A stretch of 64,000 nucleotides of DNA from an uncultured Desulfobacteraceae bacterium (GTDB lineage: Bacteria > Desulfobacterota > Desulfobacteria > Desulfobacterales > UBA5852): positions 434,001-498,000 of the forward strand of contig CAJXSL010000001.1 of NCBI GenBank assembly GCA_913060875.1, read 5' to 3'. The position numbers were made by a program, and so were the translations under genes. The notes below the pieces were generated by a model. The model did not search any database. It saw only the letters and a list, made by a program, of their open reading frames with translations, and was not told the DNA's origin. This document shows, one piece after another, positions 7,443 to 63,817 of the stretch. How positions within the stretch are numbered: position 1 is the first letter of the stretch; the number at the start of each line of letters is the position of its first letter.

Positions 7443-7588
7443 TAGAAGCCATCTCAAAATTAGGGTTTTCGTTCGAGATCAAGGCGTGGCCGAGAATCAG
7501 CCCGCAGGCATACTCAAGTATGTCGAGGACTTGAGACGAGGACACAACGCCGATATCGGGCGAAAAAACATTTTTGAGATAGCTTCTA
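7443..7588. repeat. 146-bp palindromic element, copy A
   Basis: The ends are TAGAAGCCATCTCAAAA and its near-perfect inverse TTTTGAGATAGCTTCTA. The centre contains CATACTCAAGTATG next to TCGAGGAC. It is about 96% identical over its full length to copy B at 12210-12355, which lies in the opposite orientation (about six differences by eye). Its terminal TAG (minus strand, 7588-7586) is the stop codon of the Ntn hydrolase gene. Confidence 0.85.
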
Positions 7589-12209: not shown

Positions 12210-12355
12210 TAGAAGCTATCTCAAAAAAGTTTTTTCGCCCTATATCGGCGTTGTGCCCTCGTCTCAAGTCCTCGACATACTACAGTATGCCTGCGGGCTG
12301 ATTCTCGGCCACGCCTTGATCTCGAACGAAAACCCTAATTTTGAGATGACTTCTA
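12210..12355. repeat. 146-bp palindromic element, copy B
   Basis: The inverse of copy A with TAGAAGCTATCTCAAAA and TTTTGAGATGACTTCTA ends. The central core is TCCTCGACATACTACAG followed by TATGCCTGCGG. It lies 27 bp upstream of the reductase start at 12182, so it may overlap that gene's promoter or leader. Confidence 0.85.
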
Positions 12356-31184: not shown

Positions 31185-31826
31185 TTAGGCGGTAGGAGCG
31201 CCGTTTTCACGTTCGGCGAGGTAGACATCGAACATATCCCGGATCAGGCGGCCCACCCGCTGCATGTGCTCCAGGCTTTCCGTTTCGGAACGCCCGGGGT
31301 ATTTGCGGAAAGCGATCAGGATGCCGCTCAGGGCGGCAAAAAGTGAATGGGAGAGAAGGCGTTTGTCGGCTTCTTCCGGGACGTCGACAAAGACCAGTTC
31401 GAGCAGATCCATGAACCGACGGGCCACCACATCCAGTTTGCGTGCCGATTCGCCGCCGATTTTGCCATGCAGGGAAAAACGGGTGATCATCTGCCAGTAG
31501 ACTTCGTTGCGGGTGTTGTATTCCAGAAAATGGGCGATCAGGGCGTCCAGTTTTTCGGAATCCCCTTTGCCTTCGAGATGCGTTTCAAGCTCGCTAATGA
31601 ATCTTTTGGTGTCGCGATAAGCCGCCTCGACAAAAAGGGCTTCCTGGTTTTTGAAATAGGTATAGATGGACGACTTGGCGATGCCGGCCGCGTTGGCGAT
31701 TTCCTGCATGCTGACATTGTCATACGTTTTGGTGCCGAATACTGTTTTGGCGGCATCGATGATCAGGTCTTTGCGGGTTTCCCGCTCCTGCTGTTTGAGT
31801 CTGCTGAGGGTGCCTTTGGGGGCCAT
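31185..31826 (-). CDS. TetR/AcrR-family transcriptional regulator
   Basis: 213 residues from the ATG at 31826, preceded by AAGGA at 7 nt; an ATG at 31964 would add 46 residues with no domain and no ribosome site. The TetR HTH is at about 25-70 (VSMQEIANAAGIAKSSIYTYF). The C-terminal ligand domain is variable. It is divergent from the acyl-CoA ligase gene at 32077, and a perfect inverted repeat lies within the likely ligase promoter, so it is probably an acyl-CoA-responsive repressor of the cluster to its right. Confidence 0.88.
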   Translation of the reverse strand: MAPKGTLSRLKQQERETRKDLIIDAAKTVFGTKTYDNVSMQEIANAAGIAKSSIYTYFKNQEALFVEAAYRDTKRFISELETHLEGKGDSEKLDALIAHFLEYNTRNEVYWQMITRFSLHGKIGGESARKLDVVARRFMDLLELVFVDVPEEADKRLLSHSLFAALSGILIAFRKYPGRSETESLEHMQRVGRLIRDMFDVYLAERENGAPTA

Positions 31827-31995
31827 GGTGGTTTCCTTGCAACCGTCGATATGGATTTCGATCTCGGGCGGATAATCCGGAGAGGTTTTACCGATATGGG
31901 GTGATTGATTGCCCTGTGCCCTTTCATTTCCGGCAAAAAATAATCGCTTCCGATACAATTCCATAGCATCGGTGCGTTAAAAAATCAAATATAGG

Positions 31996-32024
31996 TTGAC
32001 TGATCGACCGGTGGTCGATATGTA
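31996..32024 (+). promoter_or_regulatory. Sigma-70-like promoter with palindromic operator in its spacer
   Basis: TTGACT (31996-32001) and TATGTA (32019-32024) are separated by exactly 17 bp. The spacer is almost filled by the perfect inverted repeat ATCGACC-GGT-GGTCGAT (32003-32019). This is the usual arrangement for a TetR-type repressor that blocks RNA polymerase. It lies 50 bp before the ligase start and 170 bp before the TetR start. Confidence 0.65.
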
Positions 32025-32076
32025 AACCCACGAACGGTTTCATGGCCATCATTTCTTCCTGAGGAGATCGTGACCC

Positions 32077-33795
32077 ATGGATGCGAACAGACCCTGGCTT
32101 ACCTATTACGGCGATGTCCCCCACCAAATCGATTACCCGAACGTTACCATGTACGAAGCGCTGGCGCAGACGACAGCGCGCTGCCCGGAAGCGGTGGCCT
32201 ATGATTTCTTCGGCACCACGGCCACCTACCGGCAATTTCTGGCGGAGATCGATCGCTGTGCCGCTGCCCTGTCCGCGCTGGGGCTCGAACAGGGGGAGCG
32301 CATGACCATTGCCATGCCCACCTGCCCCCAGGCGGTGATTTGCTTTTACGCCGTGAACAAACTGGGGGCGGTGGCCAGCATGATTCACCCCCTGTCCACC
32401 GCCACCGAGATCGCCTTTTACCTCAACCTGAGCAAGAGCCGTTTTGCCCTGACCCTGGACGCGTTCTACAGCAAGTTCAAAGCCGTACAGAACAGCACGA
32501 CACTGGAAAAGCTAGTTCTGGCGCGGATTCCCGATTACCTGCCTTGGCTTAAACGCCTCGGGTTCAACCTGACCAAAGGGCGCCAGATTCCCAAAGTCCC
32601 GGAGGATGCCCTGGTGGTCTGGTGGCAGGCCATGATGTCCCAAACCCACCCGCAATCCGCGCAGGGCAGTGCCGGATTCGAGGACCTGGCCGTGATTCTC
32701 TACAGCGGCGGCACCACCGGCAAGCCCAAGGGGATCATGCTGTCCAACCGCAATTTTATCTGCGAGGGCAAGCAGGTCTCGGCCTGGGGGGATTTGACCG
32801 GTGATGATGCCATTCTGGCGATTCTTCCCGTGTTTCACGGTTTCGGTCTGGGCGTCTGCATCAATGCCGCTTTCATGGGCGGCGCCAAAAGTATTATGGT
32901 GCCCCAGTTCACGCCTGAAGATGTGGCCAAATTGATCCGCACCAAGAGACCCAACTTCATCATCGGGGTGCCGACGCTCTACGAAGCCCTTAATCGCAGC
33001 AAGGTTTTCCAGCAAACCGATCTGAGCTGCATCAAGGCGGCTTTTTGCGGTGCCGACACCCTGCCGCGGCGGGTCAAAGAACGCTTCGAGGCCGTTGTAA
33101 GCCAGCGGGGCGGCGATACCCAGTTGCGCGAAGGCTATGGCCTTACGGAGGCCGTGACGGCGATCATGGCCATGCCCATGACCGAATACCGCGAAGGGAG
33201 CGTGGGGGTGCCGTTTCCGGACATGGATGCCAAGATCGTCCGGTCCGGCACCACCGAGACCCTTCCCCCCGGAGAGGAAGGCGAGATCTGCATCAGCGGT
33301 CCGGCCGTCATGATGGGCTATCTGGAGCAGCCCGAGGAAACCGCCAAAACCCTCCAGCAGCATCCGGACGGAAAGACCTGGCTGCACACCGGGGATATCG
33401 GCACCATGGACGACGACGGATTTTTCTATTTCCGCCTGCGGGAAAAACGGATGATCAAATCGTCGGGCATGAACGTCTACCCGGCCCAGGTGGAAGAGCA
33501 GTTGTATAAACATCCGGCGATTCAGGAGGTGTGCATCATCGGCGTGCCGGATGCCAAGCAGGTGGAACGGGTCAAGGGCTTCGTGGTACTGAAAGATTCC
33601 AGCCAGGCCGGACCGGCCATGGAAAAGGAATTGATCGATTTTTGCCGTCGGGATCTGATCAAGTGGAGCTGCCCGCGGGAGATCGAGTTCCGCACGGAGC
33701 TGCCCCTGACCCTCGTGGGGAAAGTGGCCTTTGCGGAACTGGCGGCCGAGGAAGCCGCCAAACAGAAGATGGAAACCGACACAAACCCGGCCTGA
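32077..33795 (+). CDS. AMP-dependent acyl-CoA synthetase
   Basis: 572 residues. Signatures: LYSGGTTGKPKGIMLSNRN (A3), REGYGLTEAVTAI (A5), HTGDIGTMDDDGFFYF (A7), REKRMIKSSGMNVYPAQVEE (A8) and a C-terminal Lys in PLTLVGKVAF (A10). It forms an acyl-CoA from a free acid via the acyl-adenylate. GAGGAG-like bases lie 14-19 nt before the ATG. First gene of the run with the two dehydratase subunits, the BASS transporter and the activase; it probably loads the acid imported by that transporter. Confidence 0.88.
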   Translation: MDANRPWLTYYGDVPHQIDYPNVTMYEALAQTTARCPEAVAYDFFGTTATYRQFLAEIDRCAAALSALGLEQGERMTIAMPTCPQAVICFYAVNKLGAVASMIHPLSTATEIAFYLNLSKSRFALTLDAFYSKFKAVQNSTTLEKLVLARIPDYLPWLKRLGFNLTKGRQIPKVPEDALVVWWQAMMSQTHPQSAQGSAGFEDLAVILYSGGTTGKPKGIMLSNRNFICEGKQVSAWGDLTGDDAILAILPVFHGFGLGVCINAAFMGGAKSIMVPQFTPEDVAKLIRTKRPNFIIGVPTLYEALNRSKVFQQTDLSCIKAAFCGADTLPRRVKERFEAVVSQRGGDTQLREGYGLTEAVTAIMAMPMTEYREGSVGVPFPDMDAKIVRSGTTETLPPGEEGEICISGPAVMMGYLEQPEETAKTLQQHPDGKTWLHTGDIGTMDDDGFFYFRLREKRMIKSSGMNVYPAQVEEQLYKHPAIQEVCIIGVPDAKQVERVKGFVVLKDSSQAGPAMEKELIDFCRRDLIKWSCPREIEFRTELPLTLVGKVAFAELAAEEAAKQKMETDTNPA

Positions 33796-33860
33796 TGCCC
33801 ATCATCCAGCCGGACAGGCGACCGTACAACGGGCGTGATTTCGGAAAAAGGAGTACCACC

Positions 33861-34982
33861 ATGGAAGCGATGCAGCCGTTTCATGATATTGCCGCCGATC
33901 CCAAAGCCTATGCGCGTGCTTGGAAGGAAAGAACCGGCGGGAAGGTGATCGGGACCCTGTGTTCCTATGCGCCGGAGGAATTGATCCTGGCCGCTGGTGC
34001 CCTGGGGTTCCGCATCGTGGGGGGCAGCGGGGCCATCTCCAAGGCCGACGTCCACCTGCAGGCCTACAGTTGCAGCCTGGTGCGCGGCGCCCTGGAGGAT
34101 GCCCTCGACAACCAGTTGGATTTTCTGGACGGGGCCGTCTTTCCCCATACCTGTGATTCCATCCAGCGATTGTCCGATATCTGGCGTATGAACGCCAAGA
34201 CCGGATTCCATCTGGACGTGGTGCTGCCCGTCAAGCTGAACACCGCCAGCGCGCGGGACTACATGACGGCGGTCATGGCCAAAGCCCGCTCCGAACTGGG
34301 AGGGATGCTGGGGCAGACGATTGCGGACGACGATATCCGCCAGGCCATCGATACCTACAACCGCATCCGCGCCAAGATGGAAACCCTCTACACCCTGCGG
34401 CGGGACTGCCCCGGCGTGATCGCCGGAGGCGATGTTCACGCGATTACCCGGGCGGCCATGGTGATGGATCGTCACGATTTTCTCAAGGGGCTTTCCAAAG
34501 TCGTCGATGGGGTGTCGGCGGCCGCCAAGGCCTTTTCAGGTCCTGATCCCAAGCGCATTTTTCTTTCCGGCGGGGTTTGCAACCTGCCCGACATTTATGG
34601 CCCCATCGAGGCGTCCGGCGGCGCGGTGGTGGGCGATGACCTGTGCACCGGATCGCGCCAGATGCTGGGGGCCATCGATGACCAGGACGATTTGATCGAA
34701 GCCATCGGCCGACGCTACATGGAACGGGCGGTCTGCCCGGCCAAGCATGCCGGTATACGAACCCGGGGGGAAGAACTTGTCCGTCGGGCGCGGGCGGCCA
34801 AAGCCCAGGGCGTGATCTTCCTGTATTTGAAGTTTTGCGACCCGCACGCTTTTGACTATCCTTATTTGAAAGACATGCTGACGGCCGAGGGCATTCCCAC
34901 GCTCCTGGTGGAACTGGAAGAGCAGACCGCCTCGGACGGCCAGTTTCAGACGCGGTGTGAGGCGTTTATGGAAATGCTCTAA
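33861..34982 (+). CDS. 2-hydroxyacyl-CoA dehydratase / benzoyl-CoA-reductase-type subunit (BcrC/HgdB-like, first)
   Basis: 373 residues from the ATG at 33861; AAAGGAG lies 7 nt upstream. The HGD-D family blocks are visible: VIGTLCSYAPEELILAAG (Cys34), LQAYSCSLVRGALEDAL (Cys71) and VFPHTCDSIQRLSDIW (Cys98), the three expected 4Fe-4S ligands, and C-terminal IFLSGGVCNLPDIYG. The partner subunit is at 35201. The enzyme family uses one electron, activated by an ATPase, to remove a hydroxyl from 2-hydroxyacyl-CoA or to reduce an aromatic ring. The stop codon lies inside a 146-bp repeat. Confidence 0.9.
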   Translation: MEAMQPFHDIAADPKAYARAWKERTGGKVIGTLCSYAPEELILAAGALGFRIVGGSGAISKADVHLQAYSCSLVRGALEDALDNQLDFLDGAVFPHTCDSIQRLSDIWRMNAKTGFHLDVVLPVKLNTASARDYMTAVMAKARSELGGMLGQTIADDDIRQAIDTYNRIRAKMETLYTLRRDCPGVIAGGDVHAITRAAMVMDRHDFLKGLSKVVDGVSAAAKAFSGPDPKRIFLSGGVCNLPDIYGPIEASGGAVVGDDLCTGSRQMLGAIDDQDDLIEAIGRRYMERAVCPAKHAGIRTRGEELVRRARAAKAQGVIFLYLKFCDPHAFDYPYLKDMLTAEGIPTLLVELEEQTASDGQFQTRCEAFMEML

Positions 34983-35125
34983 AAGCACTCTCAAAAAAGT
35001 CTTTTGGTTCCATATCGGCGTTGGACGCGCGCTTCAAATCCTCGAAATACGAGCGTATTCCTCCGGTTTGAATCGTGCTTCCGCCTTGATCTGAAACCAA
35101 AATCCAAATTTTGAGAGTGCTTTTA
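34980..35125. repeat. 146-bp palindromic element, copy C
   Basis: The ends are TAAAAGCACTCTCAAAA and TTTTGAGAGTGCTTTTA, a perfect inverted repeat. The core is ATCCTCGAAATACGAGCG followed by TATTCCTCCGGTTTGAA. Same length as copies A, B and D although the arms differ in sequence. Its first three bases are the stop codon of the dehydratase first subunit. It separates the two dehydratase subunit genes. Confidence 0.85.
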
Positions 35126-35200
35126 ACCATTGTTTTTAACCGATTGCATGGCCTTATAGCGTTGCCGACAGCCATCGGATGATACCGCAAGGAGAAGAAG

Positions 35201-36439
35201 ATGAGCGATCAGGAAAAGACGATCGATCCTGAAAAAGAACGACGGAAGATCAAGTCGGTCAAGACGATGAAAGACATCATGACCCACTATTACATCGAGG
35301 CCAAGACCGCCGAAGAAACCGGCAAGAAGGTGGCCTGGATCACCAGTGGCGGCCCGGTGGAACCCCTCATCGCCATGGATGTGATTCCGGTCTATCCTGA
35401 AAACCACGGGGCCATGATCGGGGCCTCCAAAATGGGCACCGACCTTTGTGAAAAGGCTGAGGGCATGGGCTATTCCGGCGATCTGTGCACCTACGCCCTG
35501 GCCGACATCGCCTGCTCGACGGTCAACGGCGGTCCCATCGGCGGATTGCCCAAACCGGATATGCTGGTCTGCGGCAACAATATCTGCGGCACCGTGCTCA
35601 AATGGTATGAAGTCCAGGCCCGCTACTACGATGTGCCCCTGTTCATCCTGGATACCCCGTTTTGCCACACCGAATTTTCGGACGAGGCTCGGCAGTACGT
35701 GCGCCGACAGATCGATGAATACCTTGTTTTTCTGGAGACCGTCTGCGGGAAAAAGTGTGACCATGATCATCTCCGGGACGTGGGGCGGCTGTCCATGGAA
35801 GGCCAGCGGCTCTGGCAGGCCGTGCTCGATACCACCATGAACAAACCGGCGCCCATGAGCGCCTTCGACGCTTTTTTTCACCTGGCCCTGATTGTTACCC
35901 TGCGGGGCACCCAGACGGTGGTCGACTACTACACCGGACTGCTCGAGGAGATGAAAAACCGGGTGGCCGAGGGCATCAGTGCCGTCCCCGAGGAACGCTA
36001 CCGGCTTCTCTGGGACAACCTGCCCATCTGGTTCAAGACCCGCTGGCTGTCCGACAAATTTGCGGCCCACAAAGCCTGTCTGGTGGCCGACACCTACACC
36101 TCGGCCTGGTGCGGATCGCTGCCCTACCTCGATGAAAATAATTTTCTCGAATCCATGGCCGAAGGCTATTCACGCATCTATCTCAACATCGGCACCGATC
36201 GGATGGCGGAGATGGTGGTGGAGATGATCGACAAGTACGAGGTCGACGGCCTGGTGATGCACTCCAACCGCAGCTGCAAACCCTATTCATTAGGGCAGTA
36301 TGACATTGCACGCATCGTCCAGGAAAAGCGCGGTCTGCCCACCTTGATCATCGAAGCCAATATGACCGATGCCCGCAGCTTTTCGGAAAGCCAGATCGAT
36401 ACCCGTATCGACGCTTTCATGGAAGTCCTGAAGGGCTGA
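35201..36439 (+). CDS. 2-hydroxyacyl-CoA dehydratase / benzoyl-CoA-reductase-type subunit (BcrB/HgdA-like, second)
   Basis: 412 residues; AAGGAG lies 7 nt before the ATG. The second HGD-D paralogue has cysteines at 83, 96 (SGDLCTYAL), 105, 124 and 129 (VCGNNICGTVLKWYE), and the C-terminal NRSCKPYSLGQYDI. NNxCG-xxx-KW is typical of BcrB-like subunits. With the first subunit it should form the substrate-binding heterodimer. Only one activase gene is present nearby, which fits the HgdC-type dehydratases better than the four-subunit class I benzoyl-CoA reductases. Confidence 0.88.
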   Translation: MSDQEKTIDPEKERRKIKSVKTMKDIMTHYYIEAKTAEETGKKVAWITSGGPVEPLIAMDVIPVYPENHGAMIGASKMGTDLCEKAEGMGYSGDLCTYALADIACSTVNGGPIGGLPKPDMLVCGNNICGTVLKWYEVQARYYDVPLFILDTPFCHTEFSDEARQYVRRQIDEYLVFLETVCGKKCDHDHLRDVGRLSMEGQRLWQAVLDTTMNKPAPMSAFDAFFHLALIVTLRGTQTVVDYYTGLLEEMKNRVAEGISAVPEERYRLLWDNLPIWFKTRWLSDKFAAHKACLVADTYTSAWCGSLPYLDENNFLESMAEGYSRIYLNIGTDRMAEMVVEMIDKYEVDGLVMHSNRSCKPYSLGQYDIARIVQEKRGLPTLIIEANMTDARSFSESQIDTRIDAFMEVLKG

Positions 36440-36536
36440 AGCTAATGCCGCCGATGGGCCGGGAAGTTTTCACCAATACGAATGCGGTCGGATACCAGAC
36501 AATTACCAGGAATTGACAACGGGAAGGGGGCTGGGC

Positions 36537-37949
36537 ATGCGAAGCGGTAATTCGGTTGTAAACGGGTGGCCTTCGGTTTTCACTTTTTTCTTCCTGGTGG
36601 CGGTAATACCGATCATGCTGCCGATGCCGGCGCGGGCCGATGGCGACAGCAATGCCGCGCTATACCGCAAATTGTCCCAGGAAGCGGCCGGCCAAGCGGA
36701 CAGCGCCCTGTTTGAAAAACTGAACACCGCCGCCCGGACAATAGACTGGTCCGGAGCGGGAGAAAAAGCCTTTGCCGGCCACCTTCGCATTATTCGCTCC
36801 AACGGCGACGGCCGTCGGAGCGACCGGCAGGTGGTCTATCTCCTGCGCGAATTGACGGGCAAAGTCTACATTCTCGAGATACCCGCCGATCCTGCCGCCC
36901 GACAGGGCGACGCGGGGTCTCCCTATGCCGGGCTGGATGCCAAATTCGGCAACAAACTGCAGCTCCGGGTCAAACTTGCCTCCGGAAGTGTCGACGGCGC
37001 CCCGTACCAATTTGCGCGCTTGATCGATCCGCCGGTCCAACCGGCACTCGACCGGCTGTTTAAAATCTGTATCGTTCTCATGCTGTTTTTTGTGATGGTC
37101 GGGATGGGGTTGACCTTGACCTTCAAGGATTTTGCCCTGGTGTTCACCAAGCCCCGCGGCATTATCCTGGGCGAGATTCTCCAATTCGGGTTCATGCCGC
37201 TGCTGGCCATGGCCATGGGGTACCTGCTCGGTTTTTATGAGCAGTATCCGTTTATCTTCGTCGGTATGATTCTGATTACCGCCATTCCGGGCGGGGTCAC
37301 CTCCAACCTCATGACCTACTACGCCAAGGGGGATCTGGCGCTCTCCATTTCCCTGACATCGTTTTCCACGGTGCTTTCCATTATTTTCACGCCCCTGTTG
37401 CTGGCCCTTTATTGCGCCAATATGCCGGATGTCGACATTCCGGTGAAAACCGTGATTCAGACCATCATGGTTCTGGTCATCATTCCATTGACCGTGGGCA
37501 TGTCGGTGCGGGGGAAGTGGCCCCTTTTCGCCATGAAGTCCACACCGTTTTTTTCGGCCCTGGGCATTATCGCCCTGCTCGCGCTGATCATTGCCGGTGT
37601 CCTGAGCAATATCCATGTCTTCAAGGATACGGCCCGCTACGGCGTCAAATTCTACACCTCGGTATTCGCCCTGACCTCGATGGGTATGATTTTCGGCATC
37701 GTGTTCTCCAAAATGGTTGGGATCAACAACTACCAGACCCGGGCCATATCTCTGGAAACCGGTCTGCGCAACAGCGCCCTGGCCATGACGATCGCCCTGC
37801 TGATCCAAGATACCATGGGGGACTTCTACAGTTCCATGTTCGTTACCTCGGGATTGTTCGGACTGATTATGTATCTGGCCGGGGTGCTGGCGATTTTTCT
37901 ATACAAACCGCTGCTGCCGGTGGAAAAGGAATCCGTGCCCCAGGGGTGA
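36537..37949 (+). CDS. Bile acid:sodium symporter (BASS) family transporter with N-terminal extracytoplasmic domain
   Basis: 470 residues from the ATG at 36537 (AAGGGGG upstream). A signal peptide ends at PARA-DGD. The next 140 or so residues are a soluble domain (charged, beta-rich, LRELTGKVYILEIPAD) not found in ordinary BASS transporters. From about residue 175 a normal BASS membrane domain of nine to ten segments follows, with PGGVTSNLMTYYAKGD and GLRNSALAMTIAL (sodium/substrate sites). It should import an organic anion with sodium. Between the dehydratase and its activase, it is the likely uptake system for their substrate. Confidence 0.82.
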   Translation: MRSGNSVVNGWPSVFTFFFLVAVIPIMLPMPARADGDSNAALYRKLSQEAAGQADSALFEKLNTAARTIDWSGAGEKAFAGHLRIIRSNGDGRRSDRQVVYLLRELTGKVYILEIPADPAARQGDAGSPYAGLDAKFGNKLQLRVKLASGSVDGAPYQFARLIDPPVQPALDRLFKICIVLMLFFVMVGMGLTLTFKDFALVFTKPRGIILGEILQFGFMPLLAMAMGYLLGFYEQYPFIFVGMILITAIPGGVTSNLMTYYAKGDLALSISLTSFSTVLSIIFTPLLLALYCANMPDVDIPVKTVIQTIMVLVIIPLTVGMSVRGKWPLFAMKSTPFFSALGIIALLALIIAGVLSNIHVFKDTARYGVKFYTSVFALTSMGMIFGIVFSKMVGINNYQTRAISLETGLRNSALAMTIALLIQDTMGDFYSSMFVTSGLFGLIMYLAGVLAIFLYKPLLPVEKESVPQG

Positions 37950-38006
37950 CGGCAGCGGGCAGCGATAGGGTTCGGCAAAATCTTTCGGGAAAAGGATAAT
38001 TGAATA

Positions 38007-38774
38007 ATGGTGACCATCGGTATCGACATCGGCTCCATCAGCGCCAAGGCGGCGGCCATCGCCAAGGATAAGCTTCTTGGTTCCAAAGTGATCTTGACGG
38101 GCTACAATGCCCGGCAGGCGGGTATGGCCGTATTCGAAGGGCTTTTGAAAGAATTGGCCATCGATCGCGATGCCGTTGGGCGGATCGTGGCGACCGGCTA
38201 CGGGCGCAACAGTGTTGATTTTGCCGACCAGGCCGTGACGGAGATTACCTGTCATGCGGCCGGGGCCCATTTCCAGGATCCGGAGGTGCGCGCGGTGATC
38301 GATATCGGCGGTCAGGACAGCAAGGCCATCGCCCTGGGCCCCAACGGCCGGGTGACGGATTTTGCCATGAACGACAAGTGCGCTGCCGGCACCGGACGGT
38401 TTCTGGAGGTTATGGCCCGGGCCCTGGAAGTGGATCTCGATGCCTTCGGGGAGATGTCCCTCCAGGCGGACGAGCCGGCCAAGATCAGCAGCCTTTGCAC
38501 GGTTTTTGCCGAATCGGAAGTGATTTCCCTGATCGCCAAGGGGGCGCGCCGGACCAATATCATCGCCGGCATTCACGCGTCCATCGGGGCGCGGGTGGTG
38601 GCCATGGCCAACCGCTTGAAGCTCCAGGCGCCGGTGATGATGACCGGCGGGGTGGCCCACAACATCGGGGTGGTCAAGGCCCTGGAGGATAAACTGGGGC
38701 TCCCGGTGCAGGTGTCGGCCCATGCCCAGGTGAACGGTGCCATCGGAGCGGCGCGCCTGGCGGCCGGTGGATGA
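38007..38774 (+). CDS. Acyl-CoA dehydratase activase (HgdC/BcrA/BcrD family ATPase)
   Basis: 255 residues, the usual length of HgdC. ASKHA-fold ATPase motifs are GIDIGSISAKAAAI (phosphate 1), VIDIGGQDSKAIAL (phosphate 2) and MMTGGVAHNIGVVKALE (adenosine). Cys125 (NDKCAAGTGRFLE) and Cys164 (SSLCTVFAESE) are the ligands for the 4Fe-4S cluster bridging a homodimer. It injects an ATP-activated electron into the dehydratase at 33861-36439. GGA-rich sequence lies before the ATG. Serine-Ile-Ser replaces the usual Ser-Thr-Thr after DIGS, a mild deviation. Confidence 0.92.
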   Translation: MVTIGIDIGSISAKAAAIAKDKLLGSKVILTGYNARQAGMAVFEGLLKELAIDRDAVGRIVATGYGRNSVDFADQAVTEITCHAAGAHFQDPEVRAVIDIGGQDSKAIALGPNGRVTDFAMNDKCAAGTGRFLEVMARALEVDLDAFGEMSLQADEPAKISSLCTVFAESEVISLIAKGARRTNIIAGIHASIGARVVAMANRLKLQAPVMMTGGVAHNIGVVKALEDKLGLPVQVSAHAQVNGAIGAARLAAGG

Positions 38775-39196: not shown

Positions 39197-40063
39197 TTAG
39201 GATGCCGCCAGCTGAATCATATCAAAGGACAGATCGGTCAGATCGAAGATCAGTAAGCGTCCGCGCAGGGTCTCCCGGCGGCCCAGAAGTACTTTCACCG
39301 CCTCGCTGCACTCCAGGCTGGCCAGCAGATTGACGGTAAAGGGCAGGTTGCCCAGAGTCTTTTCGGCGCCCCGGTCAGGGGCGGAGGCCAGGTCGCCGTA
39401 CAGGGCCGCGAGCCCTTCGTCTTCCGGGTAAATAACGGTAAGCTGGCCGCTCACGCCGGCCACGGCGGCGGACACCATGGGAATGGCCCGACGGCGGCAG
39501 ACCGTTTGCAGGGCCTGCCGGGCCGACAAGGTATCCAGGCAGTCGATGGCGATATCCGCCCCGGCGACAATGCTTTCGCCGTTGGCCGTTGAAAGATTTT
39601 CAGCCCATGTCGTGATTTCGACGGCCGGATTGATGGCGGCGATGCTTTCCCGGGCAGCATCCACCTTGGGCTTGCCGATTGTTGCCGCCCGGGCGAATCG
39701 CTGGCGATTGAGGTTGCTGTCTTCGAAATGATCCCCATCCACCAGGCGCAGATGCCCCACACCGATGCGGGCCAGTGTTTCGGCCACGCTGCCGCCGAGT
39801 CCCCCCACCCCCACGATGCAGGCCGTGCTGCCGAGCAGGCGTTGCTGATCCTGCAGGTTCAGGCTGGTCATGTTGCGGGCGTAGCGTTCCGGAAGGATCC
39901 CGATCGCGAGGCCGGCTTGCTCGATTTGGTTATGGCTCAGGTCAAAGCGGAGGGCGAGGCGGTCCACGGACGCTGAAGACAGGCTGCGATAGCCCGTGCC
40001 GTCCGGTCGCCGGGCATCCCTGGCCGCTTGAGCCAATTGCGCGCTGAGGTCCGGATTTTCCAT
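39197..40063 (-). CDS. ThiF/MoeB/HesA-family adenylyltransferase
   Basis: 288 residues. The nucleotide-binding loop CIVGVGGLGGSVAETLARIG and the RLVDGDHFEDSNLNRQ block, with the Arg/Asp residues used for adenylation, are clear. The CxxC zinc pairs of MoeB/ThiF are missing. About 70 residues precede the core. The start ATG overlaps by 1 base the stop of a MoaD/ThiS-type gene, so this enzyme very probably adenylates that small carrier. The pathway (molybdopterin, tungstopterin, thiamine or another sulfur transfer) cannot be decided. Confidence 0.85.
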   Translation of the reverse strand: MENPDLSAQLAQAARDARRPDGTGYRSLSSASVDRLALRFDLSHNQIEQAGLAIGILPERYARNMTSLNLQDQQRLLGSTACIVGVGGLGGSVAETLARIGVGHLRLVDGDHFEDSNLNRQRFARAATIGKPKVDAARESIAAINPAVEITTWAENLSTANGESIVAGADIAIDCLDTLSARQALQTVCRRRAIPMVSAAVAGVSGQLTVIYPEDEGLAALYGDLASAPDRGAEKTLGNLPFTVNLLASLECSEAVKVLLGRRETLRGRLLIFDLTDLSFDMIQLAAS

Positions 40064-63671: not shown

Positions 63672-63817
63672 TAGTGCCCATCCGTAAATGGCATCTTTCG
63701 GCCCCTGGCGGCGTTCTCGCGCGTTTTCAATCCTCGAAATAGCGGGCTATTCCTCCGGTTTCAAACGCGCTCGGGCCTTGCCAGGAACCAATATCTACCA
63801 TTTAGGGACGGACACTA
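63672..63817. repeat. 146-bp palindromic element, copy D
   Basis: TAGTGCCCATCCGTAAATGG left end; the right end, inverted, is TAGTGTCCGTCCCTAAATGG. The centre is ATCCTCGAAATAGCGGGCTA followed by TTCCTCCGGTTTCAA. Exactly 146 bp like A, B and C, although the ends belong to a different sequence subfamily. Confidence 0.8.

Follow-up and report, generated by a model that had tools for sequence, protein, structure and literature searches.

Which reaction is catalysed by a pair of HGD-D family proteins from an uncultured Desulfobacteraceae bacterium (UBA5852; GCA_913060875.1)? The pair is encoded on contig CAJXSL010000001.1 within a stretch of 64,000 nucleotides (positions 434,001 to 498,000, here called the window). 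Its two genes are the only HGD-D genes in the whole genome (5.88 Mb, 30 contigs). A first-pass annotation described the locus as an acid uptake and radical dehydration cluster whose two subunits have all expected Fe-S cysteines. The latter is true, yet understates the beta subunit, which has the six cysteines of a double-cubane protein. Judged from the sequences, this double-cubane type of beta is the point that was missed: the pair is a dehydratase-type catalytic subunit, alpha, with a double-cubane-type partner.

In BzdO of the class I benzoyl-CoA reductase BzdNO, the catalytic [4Fe-4S]-OH2 cluster is held by Cys95, Cys128 and Cys380, beside Glu65 and His131 (PMC11971306). Alpha keeps the three cluster cysteines in these columns and a glutamate at column 65, as HadB does. 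The pattern is that of HadBC-type enzymes, three cluster cysteines and a fourth iron without a protein ligand. At the positions of His131 and Trp46, alpha has valine and glycine, and does not have these two features of a BZD-type O subunit. By sequence score alpha is closest to HadB, with 250 bits to HadB, 151 to MbdO and 140 to BzdO. The NCBIfam HadB model reached 302 bits, under its cut-off of 750. The predicted structure of alpha was too poor (pLDDT 48) and was left out of the fold comparison.

BzdN, the partner of BzdO, binds an [8Fe-9S] double-cubane cluster via Cys36, Cys73, Cys100, Cys263, Cys293 and Cys327 (PMC11971306). The alignment placed a cysteine of beta in all six of these columns. 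Four second-shell residues of BzdN are also kept: R53, R267, R290 and H330. Two of the six cysteines are missing in HadC, three in MbdN and none in DCCP. A HadBC-type partner has a single [4Fe-5S] cluster and no extra cysteines; beta departs from this with cysteines at all six positions and has the ligand set of a BZD-type N subunit. These ligand positions suggest an [8Fe-9S] cluster in beta. The AlphaFold model of beta (pLDDT 74, pTM 0.78) fits BzdN and HadC equally (Z 32.8 vs Z 32.2). With alpha HadB-like and beta carrying the full BzdN ligand set, the pairing is therefore a hybrid.

The six cysteines are a property of a clade. For 14 of the 108 alpha loci, some of them located at the end of a contig, no beta was found within 2.5 kb, and the beta of L081 is truncated; these loci were excluded. 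The remaining 93 full-length betas were read beside their alphas. All six cysteines were found in 77, each paired with an alpha at least 50% identical to that of the window. The other 16 lack at least two of the six; 15 of these pair with alphas below 50%. The plain identity cut is imperfect: one alpha at 51% (G365, L160) pairs with a HadC-like beta and groups with the sister clade in the tree. A chance likeness of the cysteines was ruled out by the 77/93 conservation and by the beta tree described below, in which the grouping with BzdN persists without the cysteine columns.

The conservation also bears on another explanation, that the enzyme is a 2-hydroxyacyl-CoA dehydratase of the ordinary kind whose extra cysteines bind no second cubane. 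Such an enzyme would have a HadB-like alpha, as found here, and the NCBIfam HadC model was narrowly first for the beta of the window and for four of the five other six-cysteine betas scanned, although its 199 bits for the window's beta lie under the cut-off of 700. Against this, 77 loci have kept all six cysteines together with the second shell, in a subunit that varies considerably elsewhere. The explanation is considered improbable.

Phylogenetic analysis placed the alphas of the six-cysteine loci in one group (Shimodaira-Hasegawa-like approximate likelihood ratio test, SH-aLRT, 93). The alpha tree holds 58 of 111 rows (108 loci and three references); the 63 close six-cysteine alphas are represented in it by a random draw of 22. 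It was computed by a quick method only; BzdO and MbdO are on very long branches and their positions are unsure. The sister group comprises L063 to L066, L160 and L167, which have HadC-like betas. The beta tree was computed without the cysteine and second-shell columns and without two flanking columns on each side. The six-cysteine betas were still found with BzdN and DCCP (SH-aLRT 90). Removal of DCCP, MbdN, L069, L172, L175 and L176 from this masked tree raised the value to 98. The two subunits thus point to different nearest relatives, which would be explained by an exchange of partners or by retention here and loss in other lineages. No known substrate was found for the clade to which the subunits belong; the trees cover the clade without BcrBC, LcdAB, FldBC and HgdAB and do not place it among all characterised members.

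Of the 291 class genomes sampled, 98 have an alpha of this clade, in one case a fragment. Beyond the order, such alphas also occur in additional families of the phylum. In 53 core loci longer than 7 kb, the neighbourhood includes an activase in 37, a TetR gene in 12 and a BASS carrier in three; an orthologous ligase (at least 63% identity) adjoins the pair in 12. In L067, L068 and L070 to L074, genes resembling alpha have an unusual CPNN motif where the third cysteine lies, and no beta was found near them. By eye, an NDP-forming acyl-CoA synthetase-like gene and a ketopantoate reductase-like gene lie near some of them.

The surrounding genes of the window are as follows.

31185..31964, minus strand: TetR regulator, divergent (PF00440, 56 bits; orthologues divergently upstream in 12/53 core loci)
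32077..33795, plus strand: AMP-forming acyl-CoA ligase (PF00501, 281 bits; 14/14 class orthologues in the operon or a remnant)
33861..34982, plus strand: HGD-D beta with six double-cubane cysteines, Cys34, 71, 98, 262, 292 and 326 (HGD-D profile, column alignment)
34980..35126, no strand: palindromic repeat element in the beta-alpha gap (48 matches in its own genome; fold -71.1 kcal/mol, z -6.6)
35201..36439, plus strand: HGD-D alpha, HadB-like catalytic subunit with Cys96, 129 and 359 and Glu67 (250 bits to HadB)
36513..37949, plus strand: BASS-family carrier, extended at the N terminus by about 170 residues (PF01758, 133 bits)
38007..38774, plus strand: ASKHA-type activase (TIGR00241, 280 bits)

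All six genes of the first-pass annotation were recovered. In a Pfam profile scan their domain scores were far above the cut-offs (TetR_N 56 bits, AMP-binding 281, HGD-D 268 and 257, SBF 133, BcrAD_BadFG 217). Five genes lie on the plus strand, as described; the TetR gene is on the minus strand and divergent, so that no single strand carries all six. The TetR protein probably starts at codon 47 (about 31826), near the start of the orthologue alignments. Beta starts with the ATG at 33861 behind a GGAG, not at the mechanical reading frame start of 33531. Intergenic gaps are 65 bp between ligase and beta, 218 bp between beta and alpha, 73 bp between alpha and the BASS gene and 57 bp between the BASS gene and the activase. 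The largest gap contains the palindromic repeat of about 147 bases. Further copies are located in the window at 7443-7588 (minus strand), 12210-12346 and 63709-63795. Each copy can form a long hairpin, at -71 kcal/mol for the one in the gap. The repeat looks like a member of a MITE-type (miniature inverted-repeat transposable element) family and could influence transcript read-through. The close relative L040 has a beta-alpha gap without it. A ThiF/MoeB-like E1 gene lies at 39197-40063 on the other strand. It is also found next to the operon in several families (L012, L019, L024, L025, L027 and L040); in L048, it is present elsewhere.

Substrate activation had been attributed to the ligase, with no CoA transferase in the cluster. 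Both points are supported. Ligase orthologues at E 1e-180 or better were found in 14 of the 291 genomes. Twelve adjoin an alpha-beta pair. In G222, a contig end cuts the operon within the ligase. In G153 (L192, 5672-8208), the ligase abuts the activase and both HGD-D genes are missing, as if cleanly deleted from the operon. Because all 14 lie in the operon or its remnant, the ligase is dedicated to it. Its highest-scoring NCBIfam models, none of them reaching the cut-off, describe long-chain fatty acid ligases.

The activase is over the TIGR00241 cut-off of 125 bits. By sequence, it is nearest to MbdQ (242 bits), followed by HgdC and HadI (216 bits each). It is the one activase gene of the operon, which does not correspond to the two subunits BzdP and BzdQ of BZD-type enzymes. 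The only other activase-family matches in the genome are two in one frame of 1,424 residues (G000:C7:129520-131055), and no HGD-D match lies beside this frame. A single activase together with six cysteines is also the equipment of DCCP, and the pair might resemble DCCP in reducing small molecules without involving a CoA ester. The presence of two different subunits, with just three cluster cysteines in alpha, and of the dedicated acyl-CoA ligase in the operon makes such a role very improbable.

The BASS carrier had been taken as a pointer to an unusual substrate. Its SBF domain is clear (PF01758, 132.5 bits vs a cut-off of 24.3), and its homologous portion begins near residue 180. The subfamily with the N-terminal extension occurs in 21 of the 291 genomes. 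The enzyme is enriched there, with 16/21 vs 98/291 overall (Fisher p 4e-5, not corrected for kinship). The carrier gene lies inside the operon here and in G072 and divergently beside it in G149. As a defining feature, the carrier was rejected with three of 53 loci. Most relatives have no BASS gene at the locus, and the carrier therefore cannot define the substrate. Nothing was found in support of a bile-acid-like compound. In ASBT_NM, a BASS protein of solved structure, the 2-hydroxy acid pantoate is bound between the crossover helices (PMC10645422). By analogy, this fits a hydroxy-acid cargo and proves nothing. In the motif of transmembrane helix 9 (TM9), glutamate and asparagine are kept, and an arginine (ETGLRN) stands where the aligned solved homologues have glutamine. 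This glutamine is presumably a sodium ligand. Because arginine replaces it in all 20 loci with the motif, sodium coupling of the predicted carrier should not be assumed.

Together, the genes support the radical CoA chemistry of the benzoyl-CoA reductase/2-hydroxyacyl-CoA dehydratase (BCR/HAD) family that had been predicted from sequence. Support is good for the architecture; the uncertainty lies in the reaction. At about even chances, we place the enzyme in a hybrid subtype of the family, as a radical dehydratase that depends on ATP, acts on a 2-hydroxyacyl-CoA and has an additional electron store. In this lineage, the BASS carrier would import an acid, probably a 2-hydroxy acid, and the ligase would form its CoA ester. 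The activase and ATP would push low-potential electrons into the [8Fe-9S] double-cubane of beta, which would pass an electron to the [4Fe-4S]-OH2 cluster predicted in alpha from its three cysteines and glutamate. As suggested by the HadB-like alpha, the 2-hydroxyacyl-CoA would be reduced there to a ketyl radical and lose water to yield a 2-enoyl-CoA. The double-cubane would act as an electron store absent from HadC-type dehydratases. Substrate, cluster content, electron flow and co-transcription of the operon are inferred.

The single activase gene, not two, was counted for dehydration. Some neighbours hint at 2-hydroxy acids. A LarA-type racemase gene is located divergently upstream in four of the 53 loci and is adjoined by a CoA-transferase-like gene in L037, L038 and L180. 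A GlcD-like oxidase with Fe-S partners is encoded in L053 and L054. A short-chain dehydrogenase/reductase gene adjoins the pair or the activase in eight of the 53 loci. Single loci have a branched-chain-type ABC transporter (L157) or an aldehyde ferredoxin oxidoreductase (L164) as neighbour. Three points weigh against dehydration. Most neighbours of the core loci are variable, and those related to 2-hydroxy acids are confined to few related loci; no family occurred in more than six of the 110 neighbour proteins scanned among 185 listed. The NCBIfam scores of beta lie between the HadC and BzdN models. Finally, a double-cubane has been solved in two enzymes, BzdNO and DCCP, and each of them is a reductase (PMC11971306).

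This last point leads to the rival reading of the enzyme as a true two-electron reductase driven by ATP. As in BzdNO, the double-cubane would store two electrons and alpha would reduce an acyl-CoA, either an aryl or enoyl ester or by reductive loss of a 2-hydroxyl group. The BzdN-type ligand set and second shell of beta agree with this, and for the BzdN cluster a storage of at least two electrons was proposed (PMC11971306). Oah, the hydrolase of the benzoyl-CoA pathway, co-occurs with the enzyme more than expected (46/98 genomes with the enzyme vs 42/193 others). Alpha is nearer to HadB, though, and lacks His131 and Trp46, although the reductase MbdO also lacks both. Class I benzoyl-CoA reductases have two different activase subunits, and one is present here. 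The source genome itself encodes Oah. In 52 of the 98 genomes it is missing, and at least 28 of these 52 are 96% complete or more. A benzoyl-CoA reductase of the ring pathway was therefore rejected as the general role. A two-electron reductase is the less likely function.

In its broadest form, this idea describes a widespread enzyme of the sulfate reducers' phylum that would couple a dehydratase-type site and a double-cubane store to an ATP-driven two-electron acyl-CoA reduction, for example reductive 2-hydroxyl removal or aryl or enoyl reduction. It is put forward tentatively, as rather unlikely. If true, the enzyme would be a surviving link between dehydratases and Birch-type reductases. 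It would operate in strict anaerobes, which are believed to avoid class I chemistry.

The clade matters beyond this locus. Present in about one third of the sampled class genomes, it would give the rare double-cubane a second metabolic setting and would let the question of reductase versus dehydratase be tested on one scaffold. The pairing could show how the two enzyme types are related. In 2025, dehydratases were described as having lost both double-cubane clusters, and BzdNO as the first enzyme of the double-cubane type to have a defined role in catabolism (PMC11971306). Searches of the PMC library listed no paper whose title or abstract describes a dehydratase-like pair with a double-cubane subunit; the dehydratase candidates of PMC13416013 lie outside this comparison.

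Among known systems, the (R)-2-hydroxyisocaproyl-CoA dehydratase HadBC with HadI (PDB 3o3m, 4eht) shares with the operon the closest relative of alpha, the three cysteines and glutamate and the one activase. HadC has proline and alanine at two of the six double-cubane positions, which are all cysteine in beta. BzdNO (PDB 8s02) has the six ligands and four second-shell residues in common with beta and differs by BzdO His131 and Trp46, by BzdPQ instead of one activase and by the many hosts of the clade without Oah. DCCP with its reductase (PDB 6eno, 7yyl) resembles the operon in the ligand cysteines of beta and in activase number. Its subunits are all of one kind and each carries a double-cubane, unlike the pair with its three-cysteine alpha. 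The 3-methylbenzoyl-CoA reductase MbdONPQ (PDB 9gai) provides the nearest relative of the activase, MbdQ; MbdN lacks three of the six cysteines, and there are two activase subunits.

The sulfate reducer Desulfococcus biacutus has an acetone-inducible HGD-D-type gene pair, named benzoyl-CoA reductase, beside thiolase and hydroxyacyl-CoA dehydrogenase genes (PMC4103992). Its neighbour types are those of the sister-clade loci L063, L065 and L066, which adjoin thiolase-like and FadJ-like genes, assigned by eye from sequence. By these neighbour types, and not by sequence comparison, the D. biacutus pair probably belongs to the sister clade, whose betas do not have the six-cysteine set, unlike the beta described here.

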